Shown in pieces: positions 43,922 to 59,075 of a stretch of 64,000 nt of DNA. The DNA is taken from the NCBI RefSeq assembly GCF_000154705.2, contig NZ_CM002917.1, forward strand, positions 1,940,461 to 2,004,460, written 5' to 3'. The notes under the pieces are model-generated. The model was not told the DNA's origin and did no database searches. It worked only from the letters and a program-made list of their open reading frames with translations. The first letter of the stretch is position 1. Each line of letters starts with the position of its first letter. A program made the position numbers and the translations under genes. The DNA is from Hoeflea phototrophica DFL-43. Lineage in GTDB: Bacteria > Pseudomonadota > Alphaproteobacteria > Rhizobiales > Rhizobiaceae.

Positions 43922-44006
43922 GATCAGTCATTTACCAGGAATGACAAGCCTGAGGGCGGTTCCTGCTGCCTTTTCCATCATCACACGCAAGAAGGATCAT
44001 ACGGAT

Positions 44007-44321
44007 ATGAAAAAGAACCCCATCGCGGCACTGGCTTGTTCCATTGCCTTTATCTTGCCGCTGTCCGCCGCCCAGGCTCAATCCATGTCTGATGCGGACA
44101 AACAGAAAATGGCTGATAACGTTGTCCAGGCCGATGCCAATGGCGACGCGGCGCTCACGCGCGGCGAGTTTGACTTGCTTCTGCAGCTCAACGCACAGGA
44201 CAACCTTGGCAGAGCAGCGCAGGTCATCAGGCTTGGACGCCAGGCCATGATCTTCACTCGGATTGACGGCGACGGAAACGGCCTTGTGACCCGGCAAGAG
44301 TTGCAAGCACTCGCACAATGA
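44007..44321 (+). CDS. Exported EF-hand protein with two calcium-binding loops
   Basis: About 104 residues from MKKNPIAALACS; AAGGA lies before this ATG. Signal peptide (IAALACSIAFILPLSAAQAQ) then two EF-hand loops, DANGDAALTRGEFD and DGDGNGLVTRQEL, both with the D-x-D/N-x-D/N pattern. The stop overlaps the start of the HlyD-like gene (ATGA), which ties this calcium-binding protein to the exporter operon. Confidence 0.86.
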   Translation: MKKNPIAALACSIAFILPLSAAQAQSMSDADKQKMADNVVQADANGDAALTRGEFDLLLQLNAQDNLGRAAQVIRLGRQAMIFTRIDGDGNGLVTRQELQALAQ

Positions 44322-45577
44322 AAACAAACGATCAACACGCCGGACAAGCGGCTGAAAGCAATCCCTTGCCACTGCTCGACAATGGCAAGGACCCGTCTTC
44401 ATCGAAGCGGTCGCCCAGCCGGCAGACAGGTTGGCCGCTGAGGATTCTGGTGTTTCTTCTGGTTCTGTTGTTTGGCGGGGTCGTCGGGCTCTATTTCCAG
44501 GGCCCAGCCTTGCGGACGATATTTGACTGGACCGCACTCGAACCCGGCGCTGGTGCCCGGCAGCCGATCGCGCTTCCCGTTGAACGCGTGCCATCTCTCG
44601 AGCGTGTTGCAGCAATGGCAACCGGCGATGTCGTCGCTCTGGGGCGCTTGCAGCCTTCCGGCGGTGTCGTCTCGGTGGCGCTTCCTCAGGGCGCAGGCGA
44701 CGCGCGTCTCGATCAGCTTCTTGTCACCGAGGGCGAAATCGTCGCGGAAGGGGATGTCCTGGCGGTGCTCGACAGCCTCCAACTCTATGAATCCGCACTG
44801 ACAAGCGCCGAGAGCACGCTCGCGATCCGGCGGGCAGCGTTGGCCCAGACCCGGGTGCAGGTCGCGGCAACCCAAGCCGAGCTTCGCGCGCAAATCCGTG
44901 GCGCAGAGGCGACCCTCTCGGCTTCCGAACGCGAACTGGCGCGTGTGAGAAGCCTGATAGAACGGGGCGTTGCAACCCAGGCGACCCTCGAAGCCGCCAT
45001 CCAAGCCAACGATAACGCCCAAGCCGATCTCGACCGCTTGCAAGCATCGCAGCTGCGCTATCAACCCGGGCCTGACGGCGAACAGGTGGATATTGCCTTG
45101 GCGTCCGCCGATCTCGCTGCGGCCAAAGCCGCGGTGGAGCAGGCTCGCAGTGATCTTGACCGTGCCCGGGTTTTCGCACCGCGGGACGGGACCATAGTCG
45201 AGGTGGCGGCGCGCACCGGCGAACGTCCACCCTCAGACGGTCTTCTGCAAATGGGCGACACCGCGCAGATGGAGGCCGAACTCGAGGTGTTCCAGATCAT
45301 GGCGCCCCGGATTGCCGTCGGGCAGGACGTGTCGCTTGTCTCCGGGGTGCTGGGGGCAGAACCGCTCACAGGAAAAGTCGCACGTATCGGCACGCTCGTC
45401 GGAAGACAGAGCGTGACAGCGGAAGACCCGGCGGCAAACACCGATGCGCGTGTGGTTCTCGTCAAAGTCACGCTGGACGAAGCGTCGAGCATTCGGGCCG
45501 CGCGTTTCATAAACCTTGAAGTCGTGGCCCGGATCTCTGTCGCCGAAGGCGCTCCGGCAGAAGGCCCGGAACAATGA
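44318..45577 (+). CDS. HlyD/DevB-family membrane-fusion (adaptor) protein
   Basis: 419 residues. A single N-terminal membrane segment (LRILVFLLVLLFGGVVGLYF), then the lipoyl-like half-motif (GRLQPSGGVVSVALPQGAG, LLVTEGEIVAEGDVLAVLD), a long helical hairpin (about residues 160-265, heptad-rich), and beta-barrel/membrane-proximal parts (VFAPRDGTIVEVAARTGERPPSDGLLQMGD). It bridges the inner-membrane ABC permease to an outer-membrane channel (TolC-like, not in the window). It is coupled to the permease by an ATGA overlap. Confidence 0.9.
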   Translation: MKTNDQHAGQAAESNPLPLLDNGKDPSSSKRSPSRQTGWPLRILVFLLVLLFGGVVGLYFQGPALRTIFDWTALEPGAGARQPIALPVERVPSLERVAAMATGDVVALGRLQPSGGVVSVALPQGAGDARLDQLLVTEGEIVAEGDVLAVLDSLQLYESALTSAESTLAIRRAALAQTRVQVAATQAELRAQIRGAEATLSASERELARVRSLIERGVATQATLEAAIQANDNAQADLDRLQASQLRYQPGPDGEQVDIALASADLAAAKAAVEQARSDLDRARVFAPRDGTIVEVAARTGERPPSDGLLQMGDTAQMEAELEVFQIMAPRIAVGQDVSLVSGVLGAEPLTGKVARIGTLVGRQSVTAEDPAANTDARVVLVKVTLDEASSIRAARFINLEVVARISVAEGAPAEGPEQ

Positions 45578-46752
45578 CTGCCTTCCTGACCCGGCTGCTT
45601 GGAAGATTGCCGATCGGATACCTTCAGCTCATGCATCATCCTGGCCGTCTGCTTGCCGCATTGGCCGGTGTGGCCTTCGCCAACGTGCTGGTCTTTGTCC
45701 AGCTGGGTCTGGCCGGATCGATGGCCGAATCCGTCGCCATCCCATACAGGCTGTTTCAACCAAATCTGCTCATTCTGTCGCCGGCTGATTCCGAGACGCT
45801 GTCCGATGCGGCCACACTCCCCCGGCAAAGGCTGTTTCAGGCGCTGGTACATCCGGATGTAACCGATGGCACACCGATTTACATGGGCCGCTCGACCTGG
45901 ATCTCGGGACATGATGCATCCTCGTCGATCCAGTTCTTCGGCCTTGCTCCCGAAGCGACGGCTTTCTTTGACGAGGCGCTGGCAGCACCGCTGATAAGTC
46001 TGTCGCTGTCTGACACGGCACTTGTCGACACGCTGACACGATTTGTCGACATGCGCAGCTTTGCCGAATCGCGTCCCGAAGCGCCAGTGTCCTTCGAGAT
46101 ACAGAACCGCCAGCTTGGGGCGATCGGAACCGTGTCCATTGGCGGTGGATTTGGGGGTGACGGCGTCTTTCTGATGTCCGACCAGACCTTCTTCCATCTG
46201 TTTCCGCAGCGCAGTTCCGCAACGCCGAGCCACATCCTGCTCGCTCTGGCCCCGGGCGCTGATCCAGGGCGGGTCGCTGCGGAACTGGCACAACTCTATC
46301 CGCCCGATTCGGTCCGGATCCGCCCGATCATCGGGGCCATGGACCAGGAAGTCCGCTATCAGATGACGGAACGTCCGACCGGCCTTATCTTTGCTTTCGG
46401 GGTAGCGATCGGGATCGTCGTCGGGATTGTCATTGCGTACCAAGTGCTGTCAGCCGACGTCGCCGATCACATCCGCGAATACGCCACCTTCAAGGCCATG
46501 GGTTTCCGGCAGGGCTTTTTTGTCGGGATCATCCTCGAAGAGGCGATATTCCTCGCTGCGATCGGCTTCTGGCCGGGACTGGCGTTTTCGTTGCTGTTCT
46601 ACGAAACACTGGCTTACCTCACGAACATTCCGATCTTCATGACAACAGAGCGTGCGGTCGCGGTCTTCATCGGCACCATCATCGCCTGCGCCGTCTCAGG
46701 CATGCTGGCCATGCGCAAACTTGCCGCCGCCGAACCCGCCGATTTGTTTTGA
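45574..46752 (+). CDS. DevC-type ABC transporter permease
   Basis: 392 residues. Starts MTAFLTRLLGRLPIGYLQLMHHPGRLLAALAGVAFANVLVFVQLGL, the DevC/FtsX-like opening with one helix, then a large periplasmic domain (about residues 70-270) and three C-terminal helices (LIFAFGVAIGIVVGIVIAYQVLSAD and following). DevBCA systems export glycolipids in cyanobacteria and are MacB-related. The cargo here is unknown. Confidence 0.9.
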   Translation: MTAFLTRLLGRLPIGYLQLMHHPGRLLAALAGVAFANVLVFVQLGLAGSMAESVAIPYRLFQPNLLILSPADSETLSDAATLPRQRLFQALVHPDVTDGTPIYMGRSTWISGHDASSSIQFFGLAPEATAFFDEALAAPLISLSLSDTALVDTLTRFVDMRSFAESRPEAPVSFEIQNRQLGAIGTVSIGGGFGGDGVFLMSDQTFFHLFPQRSSATPSHILLALAPGADPGRVAAELAQLYPPDSVRIRPIIGAMDQEVRYQMTERPTGLIFAFGVAIGIVVGIVIAYQVLSADVADHIREYATFKAMGFRQGFFVGIILEEAIFLAAIGFWPGLAFSLLFYETLAYLTNIPIFMTTERAVAVFIGTIIACAVSGMLAMRKLAAAEPADLF

Positions 46753-46759
46753 GGACGCC

Positions 46760-47488
46760 ATGACCGACACTGCGATTGATGTGAGAAGTCTCGATCACTA
46801 CTTCGGCGAGGGAGAAGCCCGAAAACAGGCTTTGTTCGATGTAAACCTGTCGGTTCGACGCGGATCGCTGACCATTCTGATGGGGCCGTCAGGCTCCGGA
46901 AAAACCACGCTTCTGACACTCATGGGTTGTTTGCGTGAGGTTCATCGCGGGAGCATCCGGTTGTTGGAACGGGAGCTGTTTCAGTCCGACGAGATCACCC
47001 GGATCGACATGCGCCGGCGTCTCGGCTTCATCTTCCAGGCCCGCAATTTGCATGACAGCCTGACGGCGCGGCAGAACGTGATGATGGGCTTGCAGGTCCA
47101 CGGTCGCGGCGCTCCCAAAACACATGCCCTTGCAGCGGATCACATCCTGGACCTCCTGGGGTTGGGCGAGCGTCTTGACTATCTTCCAGGCAACCTGTCG
47201 GGCGGGCAGAAGCAGCGGGTGGCCATCGCGCGTGCTCTCGTCTCGAACCCCGACATCATCTTCGCCGACGAGCCGACCGCGGCGCTCGACAAGGAGAGTG
47301 GTCGGACGGTGGTGGAAATGCTCAAGGCGCTTGGCAGGGAACGGGGAGCAACAACGGTCATGGTCACCCACGACAACCGAATTCTCGAACTGGCCGATCG
47401 CGTGGTGACGCTGGAAGACGGCCGGATCGTCAAGGACGTGGCGGGTTCGGGGATTCAGACATTGGCCGTTCCTGCCATGCCCGGATGA
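46760..47488 (+). CDS. DevA-type ABC transporter ATP-binding protein
   Basis: 242 residues from MTDTAIDVRSLDHYFGEGE. Walker A GPSGSGKT, signature LSGGQKQRVAIARAL, Walker B IIFADEPTAALD and switch histidine MVTHD are all present, in the FtsE/LolD/MacB subgroup. It closes the EF-hand-HlyD-DevC-DevA operon, eight bases after devC. Probably powers export or mechanotransmission from the periplasm. Confidence 0.93.
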   Translation: MTDTAIDVRSLDHYFGEGEARKQALFDVNLSVRRGSLTILMGPSGSGKTTLLTLMGCLREVHRGSIRLLERELFQSDEITRIDMRRRLGFIFQARNLHDSLTARQNVMMGLQVHGRGAPKTHALAADHILDLLGLGERLDYLPGNLSGGQKQRVAIARALVSNPDIIFADEPTAALDKESGRTVVEMLKALGRERGATTVMVTHDNRILELADRVVTLEDGRIVKDVAGSGIQTLAVPAMPG

Positions 47489-47921
47489 TCATAGCCCCAA
47501 CGTGCGGCAATGATTGCGGTCACAGCTGATGGCTTGATACACAATTCCGATTTCGCTCATGAAAGGCTCATCAGCGGCAGCAACCGCACGAGATGTTACT
47601 CCCGAAAGTTCCGGATCGGAGCGATCCAAAGACGGGAAGCACTTCGGATTCAACGCTGCACGACCAGACCTTTTGGGGATGACCGGCTGTCAGGCGATTA
47701 TCGTCTCGGGACAGGCCGGATCCCAATGTCTTTTCCCCCTGTTGTTCCGGGTCCAGACATGTCCTGCTCGGGTACCTCAACCTTGGTTGGCCGGATTGAG
47801 GAGTTTTCCGGCGCGGCGATCGCGGCGCTGGACCTGGCGGCTGCCAGCGTGCAGGAAGGGGCTATCACTTTGCCGATCTAGGCGACAATCTGACGAGCTT
47901 TGTAAAAGGGTATGAGGCCGG
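47489..47921 (+). other. 433-bp gap, possibly with a worn coding remnant
   Basis: No intact gene. Around 47790-47920 two adjacent frames give protein-like stretches: EEFSGAAIAALDLAAASVQEG, then after a frame change GYHFADLGDNLTSFVKGYEAG ending at 47918. They could be the C-terminus of a lost gene broken by frameshift. The rest shows no signal I can support. Confidence 0.3.
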
Positions 47922-49049
47922 ATGAGCATAAAGCCCGATATACTGGTGATTGGCGGCGGCATCGCCGGAATCAGTGCAGGAGCAAGGCTGGCTTCTGATG
48001 CGAGCGTAACAGTTCTGGAAGCCGAACCGGTGATCGGTCATCATTCCTCCGGGCGCTCGGCAGCCATTTTCATCCGCAATTACGGCAATGCGACGTTGCG
48101 CGCACTCAATGCCGCATCCGCACCGTTTCTGGCAGAGCCCGACGGGGTTTGTGATTCAAGCCTGCTCTCTCCACGCGGCGAACTTCTGCTGGCAACGGAA
48201 GATGATCTTTCGAAATTCAACGACTATCTTAATGGCAGCGACGGGCTGGAACGAGTGTCCCCGGCACAGGCGCTTGAGCTGGTGCCGATCCTGCGCGAAG
48301 AGGCCATTGCCGCAGCAGCGATTGAATGGGATGCACAGGACATCGATGTTGATCGCATGCTGCAGGGCTTTGCCCGCAAGGTCCGCGGCCATGGTGGCAA
48401 AATTGTCACCGGCGCGGCGGTCAGCTCCATTTCCCGCGACAATGGTCTCTGGTCGGTGGTCACGCCGGCTGGCGAATTTGCTGCGCCGGTGGTGATCAAT
48501 GCCGCGGGCGGTTGGGCAGACGCAGTGGCGAAACTGGCAGGCGTTCGAGCTCTTGGTTTGTCCGCTTTGCGTCGATCCGCGGTGCTGATCCCGGCGCCCG
48601 ACGGGCAGGTCATTGACCGCTGGCCGCTGTTCGCCAATGCGGGCGACCAATGGTACGCCAAGCCCGAAGCTGGCAAGCTGATGATTTCGCCAGCCGATGA
48701 AGATCCCGTCGAGCCGCATGACGTGTGGGCCGATGACATGGTCGTCGCTGAGGGCCTTCACCGCTTCGAGCAGGCCGTGACCATTCCGGTCGCCCGGGTT
48801 GAGCATTCCTGGGCGGGCATGCGCACCTTTGCCCCCGACAGGACTCCCGTGGTCGGTTTTGCACCGGAGTCCGAGGGTTTCTTCTGGCTTGCAGGGCAGG
48901 GCGGCTATGGCATGCAGACCGCACCGGCGCTGTCGCAACTGGCAGCTGATTTGTGTCTGGGGCGTCTATCGCCGTTGGGCAAGATCGTAATAGAAGCGCT
49001 CAGCCCCGGGCGGCCAGCTCTGAATTTTCAACAAGGACAAGACACATGA
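47922..49049 (+). CDS. FAD-dependent D-amino-acid dehydrogenase, D-arginine-dehydrogenase-like
   Basis: 375 residues, the same length as Pseudomonas D-arginine dehydrogenase (DauA), and alike throughout. FAD motif VIGGGIAGISAGARLA; HSSGRSAA (FAD loop); LLSPRGELLL with the glutamate that corresponds to DauA Glu87, which holds the guanidinium group; RRSAVLIPAP and EHSWAGMRTFAPD with the carboxylate-binding arginines; FFWLAGQGGYGMQT. DauA His48 is isoleucine here. These alignments are from memory. The imine product is likely handed to RidA, whose start overlaps this stop (ATGA). Confidence 0.85.
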   Translation: MSIKPDILVIGGGIAGISAGARLASDASVTVLEAEPVIGHHSSGRSAAIFIRNYGNATLRALNAASAPFLAEPDGVCDSSLLSPRGELLLATEDDLSKFNDYLNGSDGLERVSPAQALELVPILREEAIAAAAIEWDAQDIDVDRMLQGFARKVRGHGGKIVTGAAVSSISRDNGLWSVVTPAGEFAAPVVINAAGGWADAVAKLAGVRALGLSALRRSAVLIPAPDGQVIDRWPLFANAGDQWYAKPEAGKLMISPADEDPVEPHDVWADDMVVAEGLHRFEQAVTIPVARVEHSWAGMRTFAPDRTPVVGFAPESEGFFWLAGQGGYGMQTAPALSQLAADLCLGRLSPLGKIVIEALSPGRPALNFQQGQDT

Positions 49050-49393
49050 GTGACATCAAACGCATTGAAACCGGCACACGCATGAGCCAGGCCGTTGTCC
49101 ATGGCGGCGTTGTGTATCTGGCTGGTCAGGTCGGCACTGCCGGCGCCAGCGTCACAGTGCAGACCCAGGACATCCTGGCCAATATCGAACGTCTGCTGGC
49201 CGAAGCCGGCTCGGACAAGAAAAAGATCCTGCAGGCCACCATCTGGATGGCATCCATGGACGATTTTGCAGAGATGAATGCTGTCTGGGATGCATGGGTG
49301 GCCCCAGGCCACGCGCCGGCCCGCGCTGCCGGTGAATCCAAACTGGCAACGCTGGATTACAAGGTCGAAATCATCTGCGTCGCAGCTCTCTAA
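49046..49393 (+). CDS. ridA: RidA family reactive-imine deaminase
   Basis: 115 residues from MSDIKRIETGTRM, coupled to the flavoprotein by ATGA. Motifs: YLAGQVG, QTQDILANIERLLAEAGSDKKKILQATIWMASMDDFAEMNAVWD, and ARAAGESKLATLDYKVEIICVAA. In RidA the active-site arginine follows the GxAPARxxxxxxxL pattern, here GHAPARAAGESKL. It hydrolyses imines released by PLP or flavin enzymes. Pairing with a D-amino-acid dehydrogenase that makes an imine is biochemically logical. Confidence 0.9.
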   Translation: MSDIKRIETGTRMSQAVVHGGVVYLAGQVGTAGASVTVQTQDILANIERLLAEAGSDKKKILQATIWMASMDDFAEMNAVWDAWVAPGHAPARAAGESKLATLDYKVEIICVAAL

Positions 49394-49456
49394 CGCAGAC
49401 GGATGTCTCGGACGACGGTTAGGCCGGATCGGGCATTGCACTGATATGGCCATTTT

Positions 49457-49486
49457 ACGGCTGCCATCACATTGGCAGCCGTTTTT
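49457..49486 (+). terminator. Intrinsic terminator after ridA
   Basis: A perfect 10-bp stem (ACGGCTGCCA at 49457-49466 with its complement at 49473-49482), loop TCACAT, followed by a T-run. It ends the dehydrogenase-ridA transcript ahead of the LysR gene. Confidence 0.88.
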
Positions 49487-49615
49487 GGTATTTGACCCCG
49501 CGGGAAAATAGCGCTCACTGTTTGATGACCTCTATGGAGTTTCGCTGCCGATTTTGCACAATGGCTGGCTTGAGACCTCGAGACGTCCACGCAACCAACC
49601 CTACGGGCCCGCCTC

Positions 49616-50515
49616 ATGAAACTCTCCCGGACCGATTTGACCGCGCTGCGGGTGTTCGATGCGGTCGCGCGCAATCGCGGCTTTGCTCAGGCGCAGGTCG
49701 AAACCGGGCTGAGCCTGTCCTCGATCTCCAATCACATTGCAGCGCTGGAAGAACGGCTGGGGGTTCGGCTTTGCGATCGCGGCCGGTCAGGTTTCATGCT
49801 GACCCAAAAGGGGCAATATGTGCTTGATGCGGCGCGCACATTGTTCACCTCGATGGACGAATTCACCGGGGCCATGGACAATCTGCGCGATCAGCTGGTC
49901 GGCAATCTGAGGATCGGCATTGTCGATGCGATCTCCACTGACCCGGTGATGCGGCTGCCCGATGCGCTGGCGCGGTTCAAGTCGAGCGCCGCCGCCGTCA
50001 CCATCGAGATCTTCGAGGACACCCCGAACGTGCTGCAGGAACGGGTTCGCACCGGCGATCTGCATCTGGGCATCGGCAGCTTCGCCTTCAAATCCGGCGG
50101 CATCAAATACCAACCGCTTTACAGCGAAACCCATGGCGTCTTCTGCTCGGACCTGCATCCGCTCTATGAGCGTGACGACGTGGATATTTCGCCCGAAGAA
50201 GTGCGCAACTGGCCGGTGGTCAGCCGCGGCTACTGGCGTGATGATATCCTGCTGCAGCTGGGCTTCAACAATGTCACGGCGACCAGCTACCAGATCGAGC
50301 CGCAATTGATCCTGATTCTGTCTGGGCGATATCTGGGCTTTTTGCCCAATCACTATGCAGAACAATGGACAAAAACCGGAAGGTTGCGCCAGATCTGCCC
50401 CGATGTGCTGCATTACGCTTGTGAATTCGATCTGATCCAGCGCCAGTCAGCCCCTAAATCCCGAGTGGTATCACGCTTTGCTGCAGAGGTTCTCGCTGCC
50501 CACGGGGTCGAATAG
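49616..50515 (+). CDS. LysR-family transcriptional regulator
   Basis: 299 residues. The helix-turn-helix is GFAQAQVETGLSLSSISNHIAALEERLGVRLCDR near residue 21-55, preceded by TALRVFDAVARN. The C-terminal part is a type 2 periplasmic-binding-like effector domain. It stands between the dehydrogenase-ridA pair and the ureohydrolase, all on the plus strand, and probably controls one or both; the effector is unknown. It is preceded by a terminator at 49457. Confidence 0.92.
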   Translation: MKLSRTDLTALRVFDAVARNRGFAQAQVETGLSLSSISNHIAALEERLGVRLCDRGRSGFMLTQKGQYVLDAARTLFTSMDEFTGAMDNLRDQLVGNLRIGIVDAISTDPVMRLPDALARFKSSAAAVTIEIFEDTPNVLQERVRTGDLHLGIGSFAFKSGGIKYQPLYSETHGVFCSDLHPLYERDDVDISPEEVRNWPVVSRGYWRDDILLQLGFNNVTATSYQIEPQLILILSGRYLGFLPNHYAEQWTKTGRLRQICPDVLHYACEFDLIQRQSAPKSRVVSRFAAEVLAAHGVE

Positions 50516-50618
50516 GATACATTTGAGTTTCCAAAACTGAACTTGGGAACTTAAGGCTCCCTGCGTTTCTCAATGCCTGCTTATATCTCCCAATCTTGGT
50601 TCAGGGGACGGGACGGGC

Positions 50619-51614
50619 GTGAGCAAAACCTTCAATCAACCACTTGGCGGAAACGAAATGCCGCGCTTTGGCGGCCCGTCGACGATGATGCGGCTTCCTG
50701 CGGCTGAGACCTGCGAAGGCCTTGATGCCTGCTTCATCGGTGTGCCGATGGACATTGGCGCTTCCAACCGTCCGGGCACCCGTTTCGGGCCGCGCCAGAT
50801 CCGCGCCGAAAGCGCCATGATCCGCCCCTACAACATGGCCACTGGCGCAGCCCCCTTTGATTGCATCGAGGTGGCGGACATCGGCGATGTGGCGATCAAC
50901 ACCTTCAATCTTCAAGCCTCGGTCGACATCATTGCCGCGCGTTATGCCGGGATCTTTGCCACCGGTTGCATCCCGCTGACACTTGGCGGCGACCACACCA
51001 TCACCTGGCCGATCCTGAAGGCTGCCAGTGACCATCATGGGCCGGTGGCGCTGATCCACATTGACGCCCACGCCGACATCAATGATGACATGTTTGGCGA
51101 GAAGATCGCCCATGGCACTCCGTTCCGCAGGGCGCATGAAGCCGGCGCGCTGATCAATGACAAGGTGTTCCAGATCGGGCTGCGCGGCTCCGGCTATTCC
51201 GCCGACGACTTCAACTGGTCGCGCGACAAGGGCTTCACCGTGGTGCCCGCGGAGCATTGCTGGCACCGCTCGCTGGCGCCGCTGATGGACGTTGTGCGCG
51301 AGCGCATTGGCGACGCACCTGTCTACCTGACCTTTGACATCGACAGCCTCGATCCGGGCCTTGCGCCCGGAACAGGCACCCAGGAGATGGGCGGACTCAC
51401 CTCCATCCAGGCGCTGGAGATCGTGCGCGGCTGCGCCGGGCTGAACCTGATCGGTTGTGATCTGGTGGAAGTCTCTCCGCCCTATGATCCGGGCGGCACC
51501 ACGGCGCTGCTGGCCTCCAACATCCTCTACGAAATGCTCTGCGTGCTGCCAAAAGTCGACCGGCATCGCAGGGAGAACGTCCCGACCGATCCCTTGCATG
51601 AAAGGATATTCTGA
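50619..51614 (+). CDS. Agmatinase/guanidinobutyrase-family ureohydrolase
   Basis: 331 residues from a GTG at 50619 (AGGGGA upstream). The binuclear manganese ligands are GGDHTITWP, IHIDAHADIND and FDIDSLDPG, with SPPYDPGGTTALLASNILYE at the C-terminus. The family splits agmatine, guanidinobutyrate, guanidinopropionate or guanidine itself, releasing urea or related products. Specificity cannot be read directly; context (D-arginine-dehydrogenase-like enzyme upstream, polyamine-type importer downstream) favours a guanidino acid or agmatine. The next gene starts right after the stop. Confidence 0.9.
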   Translation: MSKTFNQPLGGNEMPRFGGPSTMMRLPAAETCEGLDACFIGVPMDIGASNRPGTRFGPRQIRAESAMIRPYNMATGAAPFDCIEVADIGDVAINTFNLQASVDIIAARYAGIFATGCIPLTLGGDHTITWPILKAASDHHGPVALIHIDAHADINDDMFGEKIAHGTPFRRAHEAGALINDKVFQIGLRGSGYSADDFNWSRDKGFTVVPAEHCWHRSLAPLMDVVRERIGDAPVYLTFDIDSLDPGLAPGTGTQEMGGLTSIQALEIVRGCAGLNLIGCDLVEVSPPYDPGGTTALLASNILYEMLCVLPKVDRHRRENVPTDPLHERIF

Positions 51615-51615
51615 C

Positions 51616-52659
51616 ATGAACAAACTGAAGTCATCCGTATCAATCGTGGCCATGACGCTGCTTGGCATCGTTGGCGCCAATGCCCAGGAAATCAATGCGC
51701 TGGTCTGGTGTGATCACACTGACCCGGCCTTCCTCGAGCCGTTCACCGAGTCCACCGGCATCAAGGTCAATATCCGCGAATATGAGGGCACCGGTACGGC
51801 GCTGGCGCTGCTGGAGCAGTCAAGTGCGGGCGATTGGGACGTCTTCGTGGTCGACACCACCGACGTCAAGCGCGTCGCCGAGCGCGGCCTGCTCGCACCG
51901 CTCGATCCGGCGGACTATCCGCTGGCAGACGTGTTCCCCGAAGTGCAGCTTACCGATTATCACCAGATCGATGGCGTGACCTACGCGGTGCCGGAAAAGT
52001 TCGGATACAACGCCATCGCCTTCGATTCCAGCAAAGTCAGCCTTGAACAGGCGCGTGACATCGAAACGCTGTTCAGCGCCGATCAGAAGGGCAACCTGAT
52101 CATTTATGATTACTATCTTCCGATCATCTCGCAGCTTGCGCTAACCATCGGCAAGGAACCCTCGCAGCTGACAGTGGAAGATCTGCCCGCGATTGGCGAG
52201 AAGCTCGAAGCCATTCGTGAAAACTCCGCCCTGCTGGGTGACGTGGTGACCTCGCAGACGGCCCTTGCCACGGGCCAGGCCGGCATTCTGGTCGGCGGCG
52301 GTGAATATGCGGTGGCAGGACTTCAGGCTGAGCAGCCGAACCTCGATTGGGTGCTCCCCGATATCGGCGGCATTCGCTGGCAGCAGGCCGTTGGCGTCAT
52401 GGCAGACTCGGAAAACAAGGACGATGCCAAGAAGTTCATCCAGTACATTCTATCGCCCGAAGGTCAGGCGCGTCTTGCCACATCGTCCTGCTACTGGGGC
52501 ATGCCGGCCAACTCCAAGGCTGCGCTGACCGACGAGCAGAAGACCCGGCTGCGCTGGGACGAACAGCCCGGCTTCCTGGCAAAATCCTATCCTTACTATT
52601 CTCCGACCGAGGAGATGGATCAGGCCATGCAGGACCTCTGGGCCGAGAAGATCCAGTAG
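51616..52659 (+). CDS. ABC transporter periplasmic substrate-binding protein, PotD/PotF-like
   Basis: 347 residues from MNKLKSSVSIVAMTLLGIVGANAQ (signal peptide); the longer open frame from 51457 is not used. The mature protein has the extracellular solute-binding fold of the spermidine/putrescine group: INALVWCDHTDPAFLEPFTESTGIKVNIREYEGTGTALALLEQ, and GIRWQQAVGVMADSENKDDAKKFIQYILSPEGQARLA. It delivers a small cation-like compound to the permeases downstream. The gene starts one base after the ureohydrolase stop. Confidence 0.9.
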   Translation: MNKLKSSVSIVAMTLLGIVGANAQEINALVWCDHTDPAFLEPFTESTGIKVNIREYEGTGTALALLEQSSAGDWDVFVVDTTDVKRVAERGLLAPLDPADYPLADVFPEVQLTDYHQIDGVTYAVPEKFGYNAIAFDSSKVSLEQARDIETLFSADQKGNLIIYDYYLPIISQLALTIGKEPSQLTVEDLPAIGEKLEAIRENSALLGDVVTSQTALATGQAGILVGGGEYAVAGLQAEQPNLDWVLPDIGGIRWQQAVGVMADSENKDDAKKFIQYILSPEGQARLATSSCYWGMPANSKAALTDEQKTRLRWDEQPGFLAKSYPYYSPTEEMDQAMQDLWAEKIQ

Positions 52660-52665
52660 GCCGGA

Positions 52666-53550
52666 ATGAAAACTGCGGTCACCGTATCTCCGGAGACAAT
52701 GGCGGCGCGGCGAGAGCGCAGGCAGGGCCTGCTTCTCGTCGCGCCGGCAGCGCTATGGACGTTCGCGTTCTTTCTGATACCGACCCTGTCGATCTTCTGG
52801 CTTTCACTTTTCAAGAAATCCGGCGGCCGGGTTGGCGACGAGATGACGCTCGCCAACTACGAACGCTTCGTCTCCCAGGGCTATTTCCGGGAATCGCTGT
52901 TCAATTCACTTGAGCTGACGGCCATCGTCGCGGTGCTGTCGATCCTGCTGGCCTATCCGTTGGCCGCAACAATCGCCTTCCGTGTCGCACCGCGCTACCG
53001 GCGTCTGTGCCTGATGCTGGCGGTGCTGCCGTTCTGGACCTCTTATGTGGTGCGCTCCTACGCCTGGCTTCTGGTGCTGGCGCCCAACGGTGTCGTCAAC
53101 CGCACACTGCTCGCGGCAGGGCTTGTCTCCGAGCCGCTGACGCTGTCGTTCACGCAGGGGGCAACGGTGCTCGGCTTCGTGCATTTCTTCACCATGCTGG
53201 GCACGCTGACGATTTATGCCAGCCTTGCCCGCATCAATCCCAAGCTGATCCTGGCCGCGCGCGATCTTGGCGCCAGCCAGTGGCAGACCTTCTGGCGGGT
53301 GATCTTTCCGCTTTCCATACCCGGCGTCGTCGCCGGTGTTTTTCTCATTGTCGTGATCACCATTGGTGATTATGTGACGCCCCAGATCCTGGGTGGAAGC
53401 AACCAGCTCGTCCTGCCGCAGACCATCATCATGCAGATCCAGCGCCGCGCCGACATTCCCATGGCCGCAGCACTGTCTGTTATCATGATGCTGGTGGTGG
53501 GGCTTGCCTATCTCGCAATGGCGCGCAAACTGACGGCGGAACGGTCATGA
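52666..53550 (+). CDS. ABC transporter permease, PotB-like
   Basis: 294 residues, with an N-terminal helix (LLLVAPAALWTFAFFLIPTLSIFWLSLF) and about five more. The EAA loop region is INPKLILAARDLGASQWQTFWRVIFPLSIPG, which docks the ATPase. It pairs with the next permease and overlaps its start by four bases (ATGA). Confidence 0.92.
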   Translation: MKTAVTVSPETMAARRERRQGLLLVAPAALWTFAFFLIPTLSIFWLSLFKKSGGRVGDEMTLANYERFVSQGYFRESLFNSLELTAIVAVLSILLAYPLAATIAFRVAPRYRRLCLMLAVLPFWTSYVVRSYAWLLVLAPNGVVNRTLLAAGLVSEPLTLSFTQGATVLGFVHFFTMLGTLTIYASLARINPKLILAARDLGASQWQTFWRVIFPLSIPGVVAGVFLIVVITIGDYVTPQILGGSNQLVLPQTIIMQIQRRADIPMAAALSVIMMLVVGLAYLAMARKLTAERS

Positions 53551-54335
53551 CCGGCAGGCTGGCATCGACCTCGATCACCGTCGCCATCATCGTTATTGCG
53601 CTGGTGTTCATCTATCTGCCGGTCGGCACGCTGGTGCTGTTCTCGCTGCATGACGGCCGGGTGCCGGTGCCACCGTTCCAGGGCCCGACTCTGGAGTGGT
53701 ACGGCCGCATTCTCGACAATCCGCGGATCATGTCGGCAACGCTCAGTTCCGTCATCATTGGGCTTGTTTCCTCGGTGATCTCGGTGGCTCTGGCCCTGCT
53801 CGCGGGCTGGGGGCTTGCCCGTCACCGGGTGCCTGGACGGAAGATGGTCGAGGCGCTTTTGATGATGCCGCTCGCAGTCTCCTATCTGATTGTGGGTGTC
53901 GGCCTGATGGTCAGCTTTTCCGCCTACATCCCCAAATCGGTGGGCTTCGTGCTGATCGGCCATGTGGTGCTCAATCTGCCGCTCGCCTTCGCCATTCTCT
54001 ATGTGCAGTTCGACACGGCCCAGGCGCGGCTGGAAGCTGCCGCTCGGGATCTTGGCGCGTCCGAAGCCCAGGTGTTTTTCCGCGTCACGCTGCCATCGCT
54101 GAAGATCCCGATCATTGCAGCCTTTGCCTTGTGTTTCACCTTTTCCTGGGACGAGTTCATCGTTGCCTTCCTGCTGTCAGGCTTTGACCCGACCCTGCCG
54201 GTGGTGATCTGGGGGCTGTTGCGCACCGGACTTGATCCGCAGACCAATGCCGCTGGAACGCTGGTTTTCCTGGTCTCTGTCTGCTTCGCGCTGGTGGTCG
54301 AGCTGTTCCTGCTGAGAAAGAAACCGAATGACTAA
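53547..54335 (+). CDS. ABC transporter permease, PotC-like
   Basis: 262 residues, six membrane segments. EAA loop: RLEAAARDLGASEAQVFFRVTLPSLKIPI. It forms the heterodimeric channel with the preceding permease. Its 3' end overlaps the ATPase gene by eight bases. Confidence 0.92.
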   Translation: MTGRLASTSITVAIIVIALVFIYLPVGTLVLFSLHDGRVPVPPFQGPTLEWYGRILDNPRIMSATLSSVIIGLVSSVISVALALLAGWGLARHRVPGRKMVEALLMMPLAVSYLIVGVGLMVSFSAYIPKSVGFVLIGHVVLNLPLAFAILYVQFDTAQARLEAAARDLGASEAQVFFRVTLPSLKIPIIAAFALCFTFSWDEFIVAFLLSGFDPTLPVVIWGLLRTGLDPQTNAAGTLVFLVSVCFALVVELFLLRKKPND

Positions 54336-55359
54336 GACCGCGAACCTGTCGCTCAGGGCGCTTTCCAAGCTGTTCGATGACACAATCGCGGTGCGCGACC
54401 TGTCGCTCGAGATCCCGGCGTCGAGCTATGTGGTGCTGCTGGGCCCCTCCGGCTCAGGCAAGACAACGCTTCTGTCGATGCTGGGCGGCTTCACCGCGCC
54501 CACGGCCGGCACCATATGTCTCGATGATGACGACATCACCATGATGCAACCGGCGCAGCGGCCGACGGCAACCGTGTTTCAGGACTACGCCCTGTTTCCG
54601 CATCTGAGCATCGGCGACAACGTGGGGTTCGGCCTGAGCGTGCGCAAGGTCGCAAAGGCCGAGATCACCCGCCGGGTGGCCGAGGCTCTGGACATGGTTG
54701 GGCTCAAGGGCTTTGAAAAGCGGAAGATTTCGGAAGCCTCTGGCGGTCAGCGCCAGCGCATCGCGCTTGCCCGCGCGCTGGTGACGGATCCCGCGATCCT
54801 GCTGCTTGATGAGCCGCTGGGTGCGCTTGATCTCAATCTCCGCCGGCAAATGCAGGACGAGCTTCGCGCGCTGCAGAAGCGCGAGCGCAGGACTTTCGTC
54901 CATGTCACCCACGACCAGGAAGAAGCCATGGCGATCGCTGACACGATTGTCATCATGAAGGATGGCGTGATCGAGGATGTAGGCCCGCCGCAACAGGTCT
55001 ATTCCCATCCGCGCAGCCGGTTCTCAGCGCAATTCATGGGCGAAAGCAACATCATCGACGCCTACATTGCCAACGGGATGGCCGATACCCCCCTGGGCCG
55101 TTTCCCGGTTGCGGGCAAGGGAACCGCAGGCGTGGCGATGCGGCCTGAAAACCTGACAGTGACGGCGGGCGAGGGGACCGTTTCCCTCGGTATGGCCGAG
55201 CTGGAGGATGTGGTGTTTCAGGGCAGTTTTGTCAGGCTGTCTGCCCGAATCGGAAATGTGGCGATCAGGCTTCGCGTTTCCCCGGCCGATATCGCCGGTT
55301 CCGACAAAACGGTCGAAGTGTTTCTCAAACCGGGCGGTGCGGCCGCGCTTCAATCCTAG
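54328..55359 (+). CDS. ABC transporter ATP-binding protein, PotA-like
   Basis: 343 residues. Walker A GPSGSGKTT, Q loop VFQDYALFPHL, signature EASGGQRQRIALARAL (usual first leucine of LSGGQ replaced by alanine), Walker B LLDEPLGALDL, H loop HVTHDQEEAM. A C-terminal TOBE-type regulatory domain starts near residue 235. It completes the SBP-permease-permease-ATPase importer. Confidence 0.94.
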   Translation: MTKTANLSLRALSKLFDDTIAVRDLSLEIPASSYVVLLGPSGSGKTTLLSMLGGFTAPTAGTICLDDDDITMMQPAQRPTATVFQDYALFPHLSIGDNVGFGLSVRKVAKAEITRRVAEALDMVGLKGFEKRKISEASGGQRQRIALARALVTDPAILLLDEPLGALDLNLRRQMQDELRALQKRERRTFVHVTHDQEEAMAIADTIVIMKDGVIEDVGPPQQVYSHPRSRFSAQFMGESNIIDAYIANGMADTPLGRFPVAGKGTAGVAMRPENLTVTAGEGTVSLGMAELEDVVFQGSFVRLSARIGNVAIRLRVSPADIAGSDKTVEVFLKPGGAAALQS

Positions 55360-55368
55360 GAGAAGGGC

Positions 55369-56097
55369 ATGATCAGCGAGAAGGACTGGTACGAGACCAT
55401 CCCGTTTGCGGATGGCATCACACTGATCCATGAGCCCTGGATGCCATTCTTTTTCCGCTGCAACATGTGGCACATCCGAGGCCGTGACCGCGACCTGCTG
55501 GTCGATACCGGACTTGGTGCGTTCCCGTTGCGGCGCAATGTGCCGATCCTCAATGAAAGGCCTGTCCTGTGTGTGTCGAGCCACACGCATTTCGACCACA
55601 TCGGAATGACCGCTGAATTCGAGGAGCGCCTCGTTCATCCGCTTGAGGCGGACATTCTGGCCGATCCGAGGAATGACGCCACGCTGTTTGAATATTATGC
55701 GCATGACGGCCGCGATGCGGAGCTGTTCATCGCGCCGCCTGAAGGATGGGATGCGCAGAGCTACAGCATCAAGCCCGCGCCTGCGACCGGCCTGCTCGAG
55801 CATGGTCAGCGGATAGACCTTGGTGACCGGTCCTTCGAGGTCCTGCACACGCCCGGCCATTCGCCGGGACACATTTCCTTGTGGGAGGAGGCGACCGGAA
55901 CCCTCATCGCCCAGGATGTGATCTATGACGGGGCGCTGGTGACCGATTGCGATGGCGCGGATATGGCCGATTACCGCCGCTCCATGAAAATGCTGTCGGA
56001 ATATCAGCCAAGGATCGTCCATGGCGGCCATTTTCCCAGTTTCGGCGCGGTCCGGTTTCACCAGTTGATCGCCGAATTCCTGCACGAGGCGGGTTAG
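55369..56097 (+). CDS. Metallo-beta-lactamase-fold hydrolase in the importer operon
   Basis: 242 residues, nine bases after the ATPase gene. Metal motif SSHTHFDHIGM, later HTPGHSPGHISLWEE (histidine ligand) and IAQDVIYDG (aspartate ligand), and the C-terminal VHGGHF. Glyoxalase-II/lactonase-like fold; the substrate is unknown. As the last gene of the importer operon it probably acts on the imported compound or one of its breakdown products, such as an ester, lactone or thioester. Confidence 0.85.
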   Translation: MISEKDWYETIPFADGITLIHEPWMPFFFRCNMWHIRGRDRDLLVDTGLGAFPLRRNVPILNERPVLCVSSHTHFDHIGMTAEFEERLVHPLEADILADPRNDATLFEYYAHDGRDAELFIAPPEGWDAQSYSIKPAPATGLLEHGQRIDLGDRSFEVLHTPGHSPGHISLWEEATGTLIAQDVIYDGALVTDCDGADMADYRRSMKMLSEYQPRIVHGGHFPSFGAVRFHQLIAEFLHEAG

Positions 56098-56420
56098 GGG
56101 CCGGAAGAGCGGATCTTCAGTTTCTGTGTGTGGACTCCGAAAAGCGCTGATACCTTTTTCTGCCCCGGGAGTGTGCTTCGTCCCTTTGCGGAGAATCAAA
56201 ACATCGAAGCCAAATGGTTGCCCAGCCGGAAAATCTGATTTCCAAGGCTGCTCCGTCAAACAGATCTTCAGTGAAAGTAGGGTTTTGCTGCTTTTGGCAG
56301 CCCAACATTACCCCTTGCGAAACCGGGGCGAAAGCCTTATGTCGCGTTGACTTCTCGCGGGACCCGGACCAAACGCCTCCGGTTCCACTGTCTGCCAACA
56401 GGATTACAGGATACAGGACG
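56098..56420 (+). promoter_or_regulatory. 323-bp 5' region of tuf
   Basis: No gene is supported. It must contain the tuf promoter and leader. A ribosome site AGGA lies ahead of the ATG at 56421. A stretch resembling rhizobial vegetative promoters (CTTGCG near 56317, then TATGTC about 18 bases on) is visible but weak. Confidence 0.4.
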
Positions 56421-57596
56421 ATGGCAAAGGGTAAGTTCGAGCGCAATAAGCCGCACGTAAACATCGGCACGATTGGTCACGTTGACCACGGCAAGACGTC
56501 TCTGACGGCTGCGATCACCAAGTACTTTGGAGATTTCAAGGCCTATGACCAGATTGACGCTGCACCCGAAGAGAAGGCCCGCGGCATCACCATTTCGACC
56601 GCGCACGTCGAGTATGAGACCGAAGGCCGTCACTACGCCCACGTCGACTGCCCCGGCCACGCTGACTATGTGAAGAACATGATCACCGGTGCGGCTCAGA
56701 TGGATGGCGCGATCCTGGTTGTTTCGGCTGCTGACGGCCCGATGCCCCAGACCCGCGAGCACATCCTGCTTGCCCGCCAGGTTGGCGTGCCTTCGCTGGT
56801 GGTGTTCCTCAACAAGGTCGACCAGGTCGACGACGAGGAGCTTCTCGAGCTGGTGGAGATGGAAGTTCGCGAACTTCTGTCGTCCTACGACTTCCCGGGC
56901 GACGACATTCCGATCATCAAGGGCTCTGCTCTGGTTGCGCTCAACGATGGCGACAAGGCCCAGGGTGAAGACGCGATCCGTGCTCTGATGGCTGCGGTTG
57001 ACGAGTACATCCCGACCCCTGAGCGTCCGATCGACCAGCCGTTCCTGATGCCGATCGAAGACGTGTTCTCGATCTCGGGCCGCGGTACTGTTGTGACCGG
57101 CCGTGTCGAGCGTGGCATTGTCAAGGTTGGCGAAGAAATCGAAATCGTCGGCATCCGCGACACCAAGAAGACGGTTTGCACGGGCGTTGAAATGTTCCGC
57201 AAGCTGCTCGACCAGGGCCAGGCCGGCGACAACATCGGCGCGCTTCTGCGTGGCGTTGACCGTGAAGGCGTTGAGCGCGGTCAGGTTCTCTGCAAGCCTG
57301 GTTCGGTCAAGCCGCACACCAAGTTCAAGGCAGAAGCCTACATTCTGACCAAGGAAGAGGGCGGTCGTCACACACCGTTCTTCACCAACTACCGTCCGCA
57401 GTTTTACTTCCGCACGACCGACGTGACGGGTGTTGTGACACTGCCGGAAGGCACCGAAATGGTGATGCCGGGCGACAATATCTCGGCTGACGTGACGCTG
57501 ATCGTGCCGATCGCGATGGAAGAGAAGCTGCGCTTCGCCATCCGCGAAGGCGGCCGCACCGTCGGCGCCGGCATCGTCGCTTCGATCATCGAGTAA
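56421..57596 (+). CDS. tuf: Elongation factor Tu
   Basis: 391 residues from [16 protein letters not shown]; this ATG is in the same frame as an open extension to 56214 that is not coding. G1 GHVDHGKT, G3 DCPGHADY and G4 NKVDQVDD define the GTPase. It delivers aminoacyl-tRNA to the ribosome. It is followed by tRNA-Trp and secE, the usual second tuf copy position in rhizobia. The last 11 codons are repeated downstream (see the 117-bp duplication). Confidence 0.98.
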
Positions 57597-57650
57597 TCGA
57601 TGAACGCTGCGCCGGTGGCGCAAGCTGCCGACGGCACTTTGGGACAATGC

Positions 57651-57672
57651 AAAACGCGCTTCGGCGCGTTTT
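57651..57672 (+). terminator. tuf intrinsic terminator, first copy
   Basis: Perfect 9-bp stem AAAACGCGC/GCGCGTTTT with a TTCG tetraloop; the A and T arms serve as the T-run in both directions. Confidence 0.9.
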
Positions 57673-57767
57673 GTTTTGGCGGCGCCGGCATCGTCGCTTC
57701 GATCATCGAGTAATCGATGAACGCTGCGCCGGTGGCGCAAGCTGCCGACGGCACTTTGGGACAATGC

Positions 57768-57789
57768 AAAACGCGCTTCGGCGCGTTTT
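57768..57789 (+). terminator. tuf intrinsic terminator, second copy
   Basis: Identical to the hairpin at 57651-57672, 117 bases downstream; gives tuf two terminators in series before tRNA-Trp. Confidence 0.9.
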
Positions 57790-58048
57790 GTTGTTTGAAA
57801 GGCTGACTTCCGGGTGGCGTGGAATGATGTTCGCAACTGCAATGCATCGCCGCCCAAAAGAAAAATCCGCCATCGATCCCATTGCGGCAACTTCTCTGTT
57901 GCATTCACATCGCGTTTGACGCTATCAGAGCCGCCACCGGGCAATTGCATCGCCTGCGGTAAAGGCGCCAACATGGTGCGCACCGTGGACATGCAGTCAA
58001 AGGAAATCGAGCGGACAATGCGTGCCTGATTCCGGTACGCCACGCTCT

Positions 58049-58124
58049 AGGGGTATAGCTCAGTTGGTAGAGCGACGGTCTCCAAAACCGTAGGTCGCAG
58101 GTTCGAGTCCTGCTGCCCCTGCCA
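58049..58124 (+). tRNA. tRNA-Trp (anticodon CCA)
   Basis: 76 nucleotides, CCA encoded. Acceptor AGGGGTA with TGCCCCT, D arm GCTCAGTTGGTAGAGC, anticodon loop CTCCAAA (CCA), T arm GGTTCGAGTCC. It stands between tuf and secE as in most alphaproteobacteria. Confidence 0.97.
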
Positions 58125-58230
58125 GTCCGCCTGGACTTGGGTTCCGGTTTTATCGATCACAAGACATGGGCACCCAGGGGCAAGGTTCGGGCCAGATTGC
58201 CCTATGAAAGCAAAAAAGCCCTTCTTCCCT

Positions 58231-58259
58231 CTTGTGGATTCGAGAATCGGTCTTTATGT
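58231..58259 (+). promoter_or_regulatory. Candidate promoter of the secE-nusG transcript
   Basis: CTTGTG, 17-base spacer, TTATGT at 58231-58259, reminiscent of the CTTGAC/TATAAT-like vegetative consensus of rhizobia. The prediction is weak and unconfirmed. Confidence 0.35.
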
Positions 58260-58330
58260 AGGCTGCAACAGACACGCGGTGCGTGGAGCTGGGAGACCGG
58301 CTTTACGCGCCGTATAAGCGTGGACAGACA

Positions 58331-58531
58331 ATGGCATCCAAGACAAATCCGTTTACTTTCATCCAGCAGGTTCGCTCTGAAACTGCAAAAGTCAAGTGGC
58401 CGTCGCGTCGCGAAACCTCGATCTCAACGGTCATGGTTCTCGTGATGGTACTGCTTGCCTCGATTTTCTTTTTCGCCGCAGACCAGGCATTGGGATGGGT
58501 GATTTCGCTCATCCTGAACATTGGCGCTTGA
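58331..58531 (+). CDS. secE: Preprotein translocase subunit SecE
   Basis: 66 residues from [17 protein letters not shown]; the conserved [17 protein letters not shown] block and one membrane helix ([20 protein letters not shown]) identify the single-helix SecE. It braces SecY in the translocon. nusG follows after 13 bases. The ATG at 58331 fits; an extension to 58283 in the same frame is not used. Confidence 0.95.
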
Positions 58532-58544
58532 GGCGGGGAACAAG

Positions 58545-59075
58545 ATGACAGCACGCTGGTATATCGTTCACGCCTATTCGAACTTCGAAAAGAAGGTCGC
58601 GGATTCTATCGAGGAGCAGGCGCGCCAGAAAGGCCTTAGCCATCTGTTCGAGAAGATCCTTGTTCCGGTTGAGAAGGTTGTTGAAGTGCGCCGCGGCCGC
58701 AAGGTTGACGCAGAGCGCAAGTTCTTCCCGGGTTACGTGATGGTTCGCGCGGACCTTACCGATGAGGCGTTCCACCTTATCAAGAACACGCCGAAGGTTA
58801 CGGGATTTCTGGGCAGTGATTCAAAGCCCGTTCCGATTCCGGATTCGGAAGCCGAGCGCATCCTGACCCAGGTTCAGGAAGGCGTCGAGCGGCCCAAGCC
58901 CTCGATCGCTTTTGAAATCGGCGAGCAGGTGCGTGTGTCCGATGGGCCGTTTGCTTCGTTCAATGGCACGGTTCAGGAAGTCGATGAGGAGCGTTCGCGC
59001 CTCAAGGTCGAGGTTTCCATCTTTGGCCGGGCAACCCCGGTCGAGCTTGAATACGGTCAGGTCGAGAAGGTCTGA
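58545..59075 (+). CDS. nusG: Transcription termination/antitermination protein NusG
   Basis: 176 residues from [25 protein letters not shown] domain with [23 protein letters not shown], then the KOW domain [40 protein letters not shown]. It couples RNA polymerase with ribosomes or Rho. It is co-transcribed with secE. Confidence 0.97.

Follow-up and report, generated by a model that had tools for sequence, protein, structure and literature searches.

A probable guanidino-acid uptake and hydrolysis unit adjoining a separate D-amino-acid dehydrogenase–Rid2 unit in Hoeflea phototrophica DFL-43

Four described systems come closest in kind to the locus treated here: the dauBAR operon of Pseudomonas aeruginosa, which we take to carry out D-to-L arginine conversion; dguABC-type pairs of a D-amino-acid dehydrogenase and a Rid2 protein, among them PA5083, presumably DguB; the P. 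aeruginosa gbuA-gbuR genes of the arginine transaminase/dehydrogenase pathway; and the PotABCD importer of Escherichia coli. According to published reports, the active site of DauA comprises H48, Y53, E87, R222, E246, Y249, and R305 (PMC11193025), gbuA is regulated by GbuR in P. aeruginosa (PMC10926688), and Arg72 of the guanidinobutyrase GbuA caps the neighbouring active site, where it could contact the substrate carboxylate, and a related human enzyme accepts guanidino acids, takes arginine less readily, and does not take agmatine (PMC9772407). Here, we analyzed a 64-kb window of the H. phototrophica DFL-43 genome (the whole 64,000-nucleotide stretch, contig NZ_CM002917.1, 1,940,461–2,004,460; all coordinates below are positions in this window), in which nine co-directional genes occupy 47922–56097. 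An initial annotation had read them as a possible single island for the uptake and breakdown of a D-arginine-like guanidino compound. All nine open where it had placed them, and their Pfam families (DAO, Ribonuc_L-PSP [Rid], LysR, ureohydrolase, solute-binding protein [SBP], two permeases, ATPase, and metallo-β-lactamase [MBL]) bear out the gene list. The account that we favour, and consider probable, is that a guanidino-acid uptake and hydrolysis unit (lysR, gbuA, an ATP-binding cassette [ABC] importer, and the MBL gene) adjoins a separate DAO–Rid2 unit. The locus assembles known parts in a new arrangement, with one enzyme, the MBL protein, that is without an assigned function. Its features, with the evidence for each, are as follows.

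47818–47921, + strand: 3′-end remnant of an acetylpolyamine-deacetylase-like (Hist_deacetyl) gene, ending at the DAO start (BLASTN, codon identity)
47922–49049, + strand: DauA-like FAD D-amino-acid dehydrogenase, DAO (Pfam, structure relatives, residues)
49046–49393, + strand: Rid2-type imine deaminase, ATGA overlap with DAO (open reading frame [ORF], Pfam, structure relatives)
49457–49482, + strand: intrinsic terminator between the two units (stem plus T-run, folding z)
49616–50515, + strand: LysR regulator, GbuR-like by position (Pfam, neighbourhood comparison)
50531–50546, no strand assigned: candidate LysR operator, CCAA-N8-TTGG (gap comparison with locus L031)
50619–51614, + strand: guanidinobutyrase (GbuA) ureohydrolase, GTG start (solved-structure scores, motifs)
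51616–52659, + strand: periplasmic SBP, PotD-related in sequence, with a non-PotD pocket (Pfam, residue alignment)
52666–53550, + strand: ABC permease, PotB-like (Pfam, NCBIfam)
53547–54335, + strand: ABC permease, PotC-like (Pfam, NCBIfam)
54328–55359, + strand: ABC ATPase, PotA-like (Pfam, NCBIfam)
55369–56097, + strand: MBL-fold hydrolase with a complete metal site, proposed unmasking hydrolase (Pfam, invariant residues, model)

The boundary between the units is marked by the terminator-like hairpin at 49457–49482, between the Rid and LysR genes, whose 10-pair stem is followed by a T-run. The region contains 11 sites of this kind against an expectation of 7.8, and the stem of this one is the longest; its folding z is −4.14, with 0 of 200 shuffles as low. 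Upstream of it, the ATGA coupling of DAO and Rid described in the initial annotation was verified at 49046, and the DNA just before DAO still carries the closing 21 codons of a gene for a deacetylase-like protein (47860–47922, 86% identical). A BLASTN alignment to the deacetylase–DAO junction of a locus from the same genus (L153; L-numbers denote sampled loci and G-numbers relatives' genomes) starts at 47818, passes through DAO and Rid, and stops at 49386; the gene order there is ABC genes, class III aminotransferase, BKACE, histone-deacetylase-family gene, DAO, and Rid. A search of the H. phototrophica genome itself brought up no complete deacetylase ortholog, the best other match being 36% identical. 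To judge from these alignments, the DAO–Rid pair appears to be the remaining end of an ABC–aminotransferase–BKACE–deacetylase–DAO–Rid cluster. Nucleotide homology to L031, a Nitratireductor metagenome-assembled genome with a complete second unit, covers lysR and not DAO–Rid.

Gene neighbourhoods in relatives, the comparison that the initial annotation had itself suggested, separate the halves as well. Across 103 non-duplicate gbu loci (80 GTDB loci plus 23 of 26 family loci), MBL occurs in 26, the SBP cassette in 10, and AruI in 33, and the window DAO lies beside gbuA in none, its best score there being 35 bits; for the 80 GTDB loci, the counts are 0 for DAO and 3 for Rid. A family-wide search returned ureohydrolase matches at 1e-60 or better in 182 of 297 genomes, with gbuA at 69% identity or more in 27 of them (own genome included) and the other matches listed at 48% or less. 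DAO above 52% identity is present in 0 of the 26 other gbuA-bearing genomes, and the eight closest DAO relatives (57–83%) all lie outside the 27; among their genomes, G014, G002, G079, G081, and G030 are those shown as searched for gbuA. When 12 DAO-centred loci were taken as controls, a guanidino enzyme was found in 0, a deacetylase gene preceding DAO in 6, and a called Rid beside DAO in 9; elsewhere, DAO relatives occupy the deacetylase/BKACE cluster or neighbour HutF-like genes. With a terminator between the halves, separate neighbourhoods in relatives, and an importer that travels with GbuA and MBL without a scored DAO-family gene, the single island is not supported, and two units are the likeliest account. 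Neighbouring genes that seem to spell out one tidy pathway can belong to two units with separate origins. Purifying selection acts on genes of both halves (dN/dS of 0.05–0.14 against the nearest relatives, a rough value since dS is 0.8–1.4).

The ureohydrolase belongs to the second unit. Among solved structures, its best match is P. aeruginosa GbuA (3nio, 492 bits), well ahead of guanidinopropionase (GpuA, 288), proclavaminate amidinohydrolase (233), and agmatinases (at most 183). Its identity to GbuA is 69.2% (218 of 315 aligned residues); both Arg72 and Met161, the latter presumably the specificity residue of GbuA, are present, the arginase family PF00491 matches at 306 bits, and the metal motifs GGDH, DAHAD, and xFDID stand at positions 123, 149, and 238. 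The initial annotation had left the choice between agmatinase and guanidinobutyrase open; the guanidino class stands, but agmatinase identity is rejected by the score order and the residues, by which the enzyme is of the guanidinobutyrase type. It nonetheless passes the NCBIfam agmatinase model TIGR01230 (210 bits, cut-off 174), and such genes are probably named agmatinase because this broad model also passes. Another locus in the genus (L033/L122, G015) has a close gbu (84%) with no ABC–MBL cassette within its 20 kb and sits near GABA (γ-aminobutyrate)-transaminase-like and aldehyde-dehydrogenase-like genes.

Behind gbuA, the importer has the four-part SBP–permease–permease–ATPase operon make-up of PotABCD, in keeping with its first description as PotDBCA-like, but it reaches no NCBIfam Pot cut-off and the PotD pocket is gone. 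At the positions that we take to be the amine-binding ones of PotD, alignment with E. coli PotD and PotF shows Asp168, Glu171, Trp229, and Asp257 to be absent in 21/21 cassette SBPs, which share another, nearly identical residue set and keep Trp34 and Trp255. The order LysR–Gbu–ABC–MBL recurs in L031 (78–89% identity), L041, L113, and L173, and Gbu is found with the same ABC and MBL genes in L034, L048, L050, L053, L056, L128–L130, and L169–L172; in L165, an ADI/DDAH-family gene takes the place of Gbu before the same ABC–MBL genes. The five cassette genes generally stay together, and in L169–L172 MBL and the ABC genes point away from each other, separated by a TetR-like gene. In these last four loci, all from one genus, matches to Gbu, MBL, ABC, aminotransferase, and ADI/DDAH-like genes cluster. 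The plasmid records opened label relatives of the genes of this unit as spermidine/putrescine transporter and MBL hydrolase and, in one case, as agmatinase. If our account is true, a set of alphaproteobacterial transporters named spermidine/putrescine moves guanidino compounds, not polyamines.

The MBL enzyme has the MBL fold and the full HxHxDH, H, D, H metal site: H72, H74, D76, H164, D183, and H221 are invariant, and H77 nearly so, in 21 sequences. Its predicted structure has a pLDDT of 96.3, and the closest named protein record is from Hoeflea (95%). A fold search gave no functional assignment, since many MBL families tie. The 26 MBL-bearing gbu loci always carry an importer as well: the window ABC in 10, an NCS1 permease with a nitrilase in 15, and, by reading, a polar-amino-acid-type ABC in L141; an NCS1 match without MBL occurs in L049. 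All 15 MBL-bearing gbu loci of Psychrobacter have both the NCS1 permease and the nitrilase, and nitrilases are found in 17/103 gbu loci (15 with MBL) against 0/58 control loci, a comparison that favours the gbu loci because the nitrilase queries were taken from them. In the Psychrobacter gbu loci (L084 plus 14), NCS1 permease, nitrilase, and MBL are present all or none, between gbu and aruI where read. Gene calls in these loci come from our first ORF caller plus six-frame searches, because the codon-usage caller that replaced it (the first having dropped real genes in favour of antisense ORFs where the DNA is GC-rich) fails on AT-richer Psychrobacter DNA. Elsewhere, MBL stands beside an ADI-like gene (L116) and an agmatine-deiminase-like gene (L187), neither of which passes its NCBIfam cut-off. 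In a tree of the MBL proteins (L050, L056, and L117 left out for length, L166 and L199 trimmed), the gbu-linked members cluster, with 7 label changes against a shuffled mean of 18.7, a contrast inflated by near-copies.

On these grounds, we tentatively propose, as a possibility rather than a probability, that the MBL protein is a new guanidino-acid unmasking hydrolase (lactamase, amidase, or esterase) that travels with importers and feeds GbuA. In the favoured account, the GbuR-like LysR, acting in the lysR–gbuA gap, would activate gbuA together with the genes that follow it; the importer would take up either a free guanidino acid or one masked as an amide, ester, or lactam; the MBL enzyme, in the cytoplasm, would hydrolyse the masked form; and GbuA would release urea and GABA from 4-guanidinobutyrate, with taurocyamine-like guanidino acids perhaps among its further substrates. 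Candidate MBL substrates would be N-amidino-pyrrolidinone-, amide-, or ester-like derivatives of guanidinobutyrate, and the importers of the route may be either the window ABC with its non-PotD pocket or the NCS1 permease. At the level of literature listings, we located no report that ties an MBL enzyme or an ABC importer to guanidinobutyrase, nor one of masked guanidino acids being taken up in this way. If the proposal is true, an unassigned MBL clade gains a testable substrate class.

Several observations weigh against this account. Window-type SBPs are lacking in 93/103 gbu loci and MBL in 77/103, and the cassette occurs in L111, L112, and L114 with no guanidino enzyme scored within eight genes. 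Support for the link comes from 52 loci sampled by MBL alone, 51 of which had MBL called (L201 had none and was dropped from the counts): a guanidino enzyme lies within eight genes of MBL in 7/10 loci with the ABC cassette and 3/41 without it (Fisher p 1e-4), although the guanidino query set was partly chosen from those MBL loci and 4 of the 7 positives belong to one genus; the Gbu query alone gives 6/10 against 1/41. Against the account again, in the six plasmid cassette loci opened (of 19 found), an annotated aldehyde dehydrogenase follows MBL in five and an annotated agmatinase is nearby in one. A search of the genome with one query brought up no GABA transaminase at 1e-80, and a remoter DauA-family protein (41–52%, 1e-40 or better) is encoded in 12 of the family's 26 other gbuA-bearing genomes. 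As a side observation, upstream of the cassette in L219, a Rhizobium sp. ACO-34A plasmid, lie genes annotated as allophanate hydrolase, cytosine deaminase, and amidohydrolase, which give that locus a nitrogen-scavenging look.

Some of these points suit another reading, in which a polyamine, agmatine, or an alcohol- or aldehyde-forming compound is the cargo of the importer, MBL is an esterase or thioesterase of that pathway, and GbuA is just one of several downstream plug-ins; it overlaps the favoured account on GbuA itself, and the likelihoods we attach to the various readings overlap and do not sum to a whole. The PotABCD architecture speaks for it, cassettes without Gbu have aldehyde and alcohol dehydrogenase genes behind MBL (L114 and, as annotated, the plasmid loci), and remoter MBL kin stand, by reading and with no family call, beside enoyl-CoA hydratase and acyl-CoA ligase genes. 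We nevertheless hold it to be doubtful, given the loss of four PotD amine-binding residues from every cassette SBP and the repeated pairing with guanidino enzymes, including the ADI/DDAH relative that replaces Gbu in L165.

The reading of the initial annotation, one D-arginine pathway, would have the importer take up D-arginine, DAO and Rid convert it to 2-ketoarginine, AruI and an aldehyde dehydrogenase elsewhere in the genome carry this on to 4-guanidinobutyrate, and GbuA finish. Part of its chemistry survives. DauA is the best solved relative of DAO (283 bits), and five of the seven DauA active-site residues are kept (Y53, E87, R222, Y249, and R305), but His48 and Glu246 are replaced by Ile and Asp, respectively. 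The guanidinium-binding Glu87, on which the D-arginine assignment leaned, is shared with 5 of 12 relatives compared (Leu, Val, or Ile in the other 7), namely with 5 of the 6 that have a deacetylase neighbour and 0 of the 6 that have none. A Rid protein is present as claimed, but by its scores (PSPTO_0102 and NMB1025, 102 bits each, a tie; PA5083, 81; E. coli YjgF, 35) it is Rid2-like, not RidA. Rid2 proteins PSPTO_0102 and PA5083 deaminate iminoarginine, which RidA/Rid1 members did not do significantly, as one report describes (PMC5619798). Oxidation of basic D-amino acids, D-arginine included, by the DAO–Rid2 pair is plausible because Glu87 is kept and the Rid is of this iminoarginine-active type: DAO would oxidise the D-amino acid to an imine and Rid2 would hydrolyse the imine to a 2-keto acid.

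The middle-step enzymes, which the initial annotation had not seen at the locus, can be sought elsewhere in the genome. AruI, the 2-ketoarginine decarboxylase, is present (NF005712, 725.5 bits, cut-off 500), its gene overlapping an aminotransferase gene (the AruH candidate, which passes no equivalog model) ∼0.79 Mb from the window genes; the aldehyde dehydrogenase is not singled out, eight of them at 36–43% being KauB candidates. A metabolic link of the two halves is possible because the genome has AruI: if D-arginine is the DAO substrate, AruI could carry 2-ketoarginine to GbuA, so the halves could meet without forming one operon. Convergent neighbourhoods in other lineages lend this chemistry support. 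In a wide search, the 103 gbu loci contained a DAO-family gene in 11, Rid in 5, an adjacent DAO–Rid pair in 4, and a racemase in 4, against 1, 0, and 0 for the first three in 46 control loci, although racemase and dehydrogenase queries taken partly from gbu loci favour the former. Dehydrogenase–Rid2 pairs lie beside LysR|Gbu–AruI in Psychrobacter L083 and L092 and, by search, L096; L137 has the order Gbu–AruI–aldehyde dehydrogenase–two genes–DadA–racemase–Rid2; and L139, L142, and L144 combine DadA, racemase, and Gbu. Of these dehydrogenases, those of L137 and L144 score above the cut-off of the DadA-type D-amino acid dehydrogenase model and that of L083 does not; all are non-orthologous to the window DAO. 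Adjoining the DadA-type gene and Rid2 of L137, a rhizobial locus, is a 595-residue protein (L137:17479–19263) in which an ornithine-racemase-like part (397 bits, cut-off 480) is followed by a C-terminal arginase-family stretch (PF00491, residues 414–564), an apparent racemase–ureohydrolase fusion by its domain matches. As one uptake-and-breakdown pathway, the D-arginine reading is nonetheless unlikely: it has to accommodate the terminator, the absence of the window DAO from all gbu loci and, above 52%, from the other gbuA-bearing genomes, the loss of His48, the deacetylase/BKACE or HutF-like company of DAO relatives, and the importer–MBL loci L031, L034, L041, L048, L050, L053, L056, and L128–L130, which score no DAO-family gene. 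That MBL hitchhikes as a housekeeping hydrolase and plays no part in guanidino metabolism, as its absence from most gbu loci and its even match to many MBL folds could suggest, we regard as very unlikely, since it accompanies gbu alongside unrelated transporter types, is under purifying selection (dN/dS 0.081), and clusters by gbu linkage in the tree, near-copies notwithstanding.

Regulation of the favoured guanidino-acid unit may run through the lysR–gbuA gap, where a LysR site near 50550 had been anticipated and a candidate dyad, CCAA-N8-TTGG, does lie at 50531–50546. The corresponding position in L031, whose LysR is 87% identical, reads GCAA-N8-TTGC, a compensating double change that keeps the dyad; the core sequence, CAA-N8-TTG, is present 26 times in the window, is not found in the gaps of L041, L173, and L165, and occurs elsewhere in the gap of L113. 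LysR is 45% identical to its counterpart in Roseibium L041, there divergent from gbu; with the LysR genes that Acinetobacter and Herbaspirillum carry divergently from gbu, identity is 36–39%. Guanidine riboswitch control was rejected, as an Rfam search of 44000–58600 returned only a tRNA and two sub-threshold matches and no riboswitch; a sigma-70 promoter scan gave matches at chance level and was not used.

By reading, the nine genes lie between efflux-type ABC genes and tufA. A simple insertion between these flanks was considered and set aside: G013 keeps the efflux genes (84%) without DAO or gbu behind them, yet no empty site was shown, and its 20 kb contain no tuf either. The tufA 3′ end plus the sequence behind it forms an exact 113-nt tandem duplication (57563–57675 and 57680–57792).

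Compared with gbuA-gbuR of P. aeruginosa, the locus shares the guanidinobutyrase, Arg72 and Met161 included, and the adjoining LysR gene, but here LysR is co-directional, an ABC importer and an MBL enzyme have been added behind gbuA, and AruI and the aminotransferase are 0.79 Mb away. With E. coli PotABCD, the importer has its four-part make-up in common, but it passes no Pot cut-off and its pocket residues are replaced. DAO has DauA as its closest solved relative and five active-site residues in common with it, but differs in H48I, E246D, and an overlapping Rid2 partner, and no DauB is found among the nine genes. Rid was not put in place of DauB, as the initial annotation had supposed, since Rid speeds hydrolysis to 2-ketoarginine but DauB converts 2-ketoarginine to L-arginine, as the report on the Rid2 proteins describes (PMC5619798). 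The dguABC-type pairs resemble the first unit in joining a flavoprotein to a Rid2 partner, from which the window pair differs in having no binding protein or regulator of its own and a broken deacetylase gene upstream.

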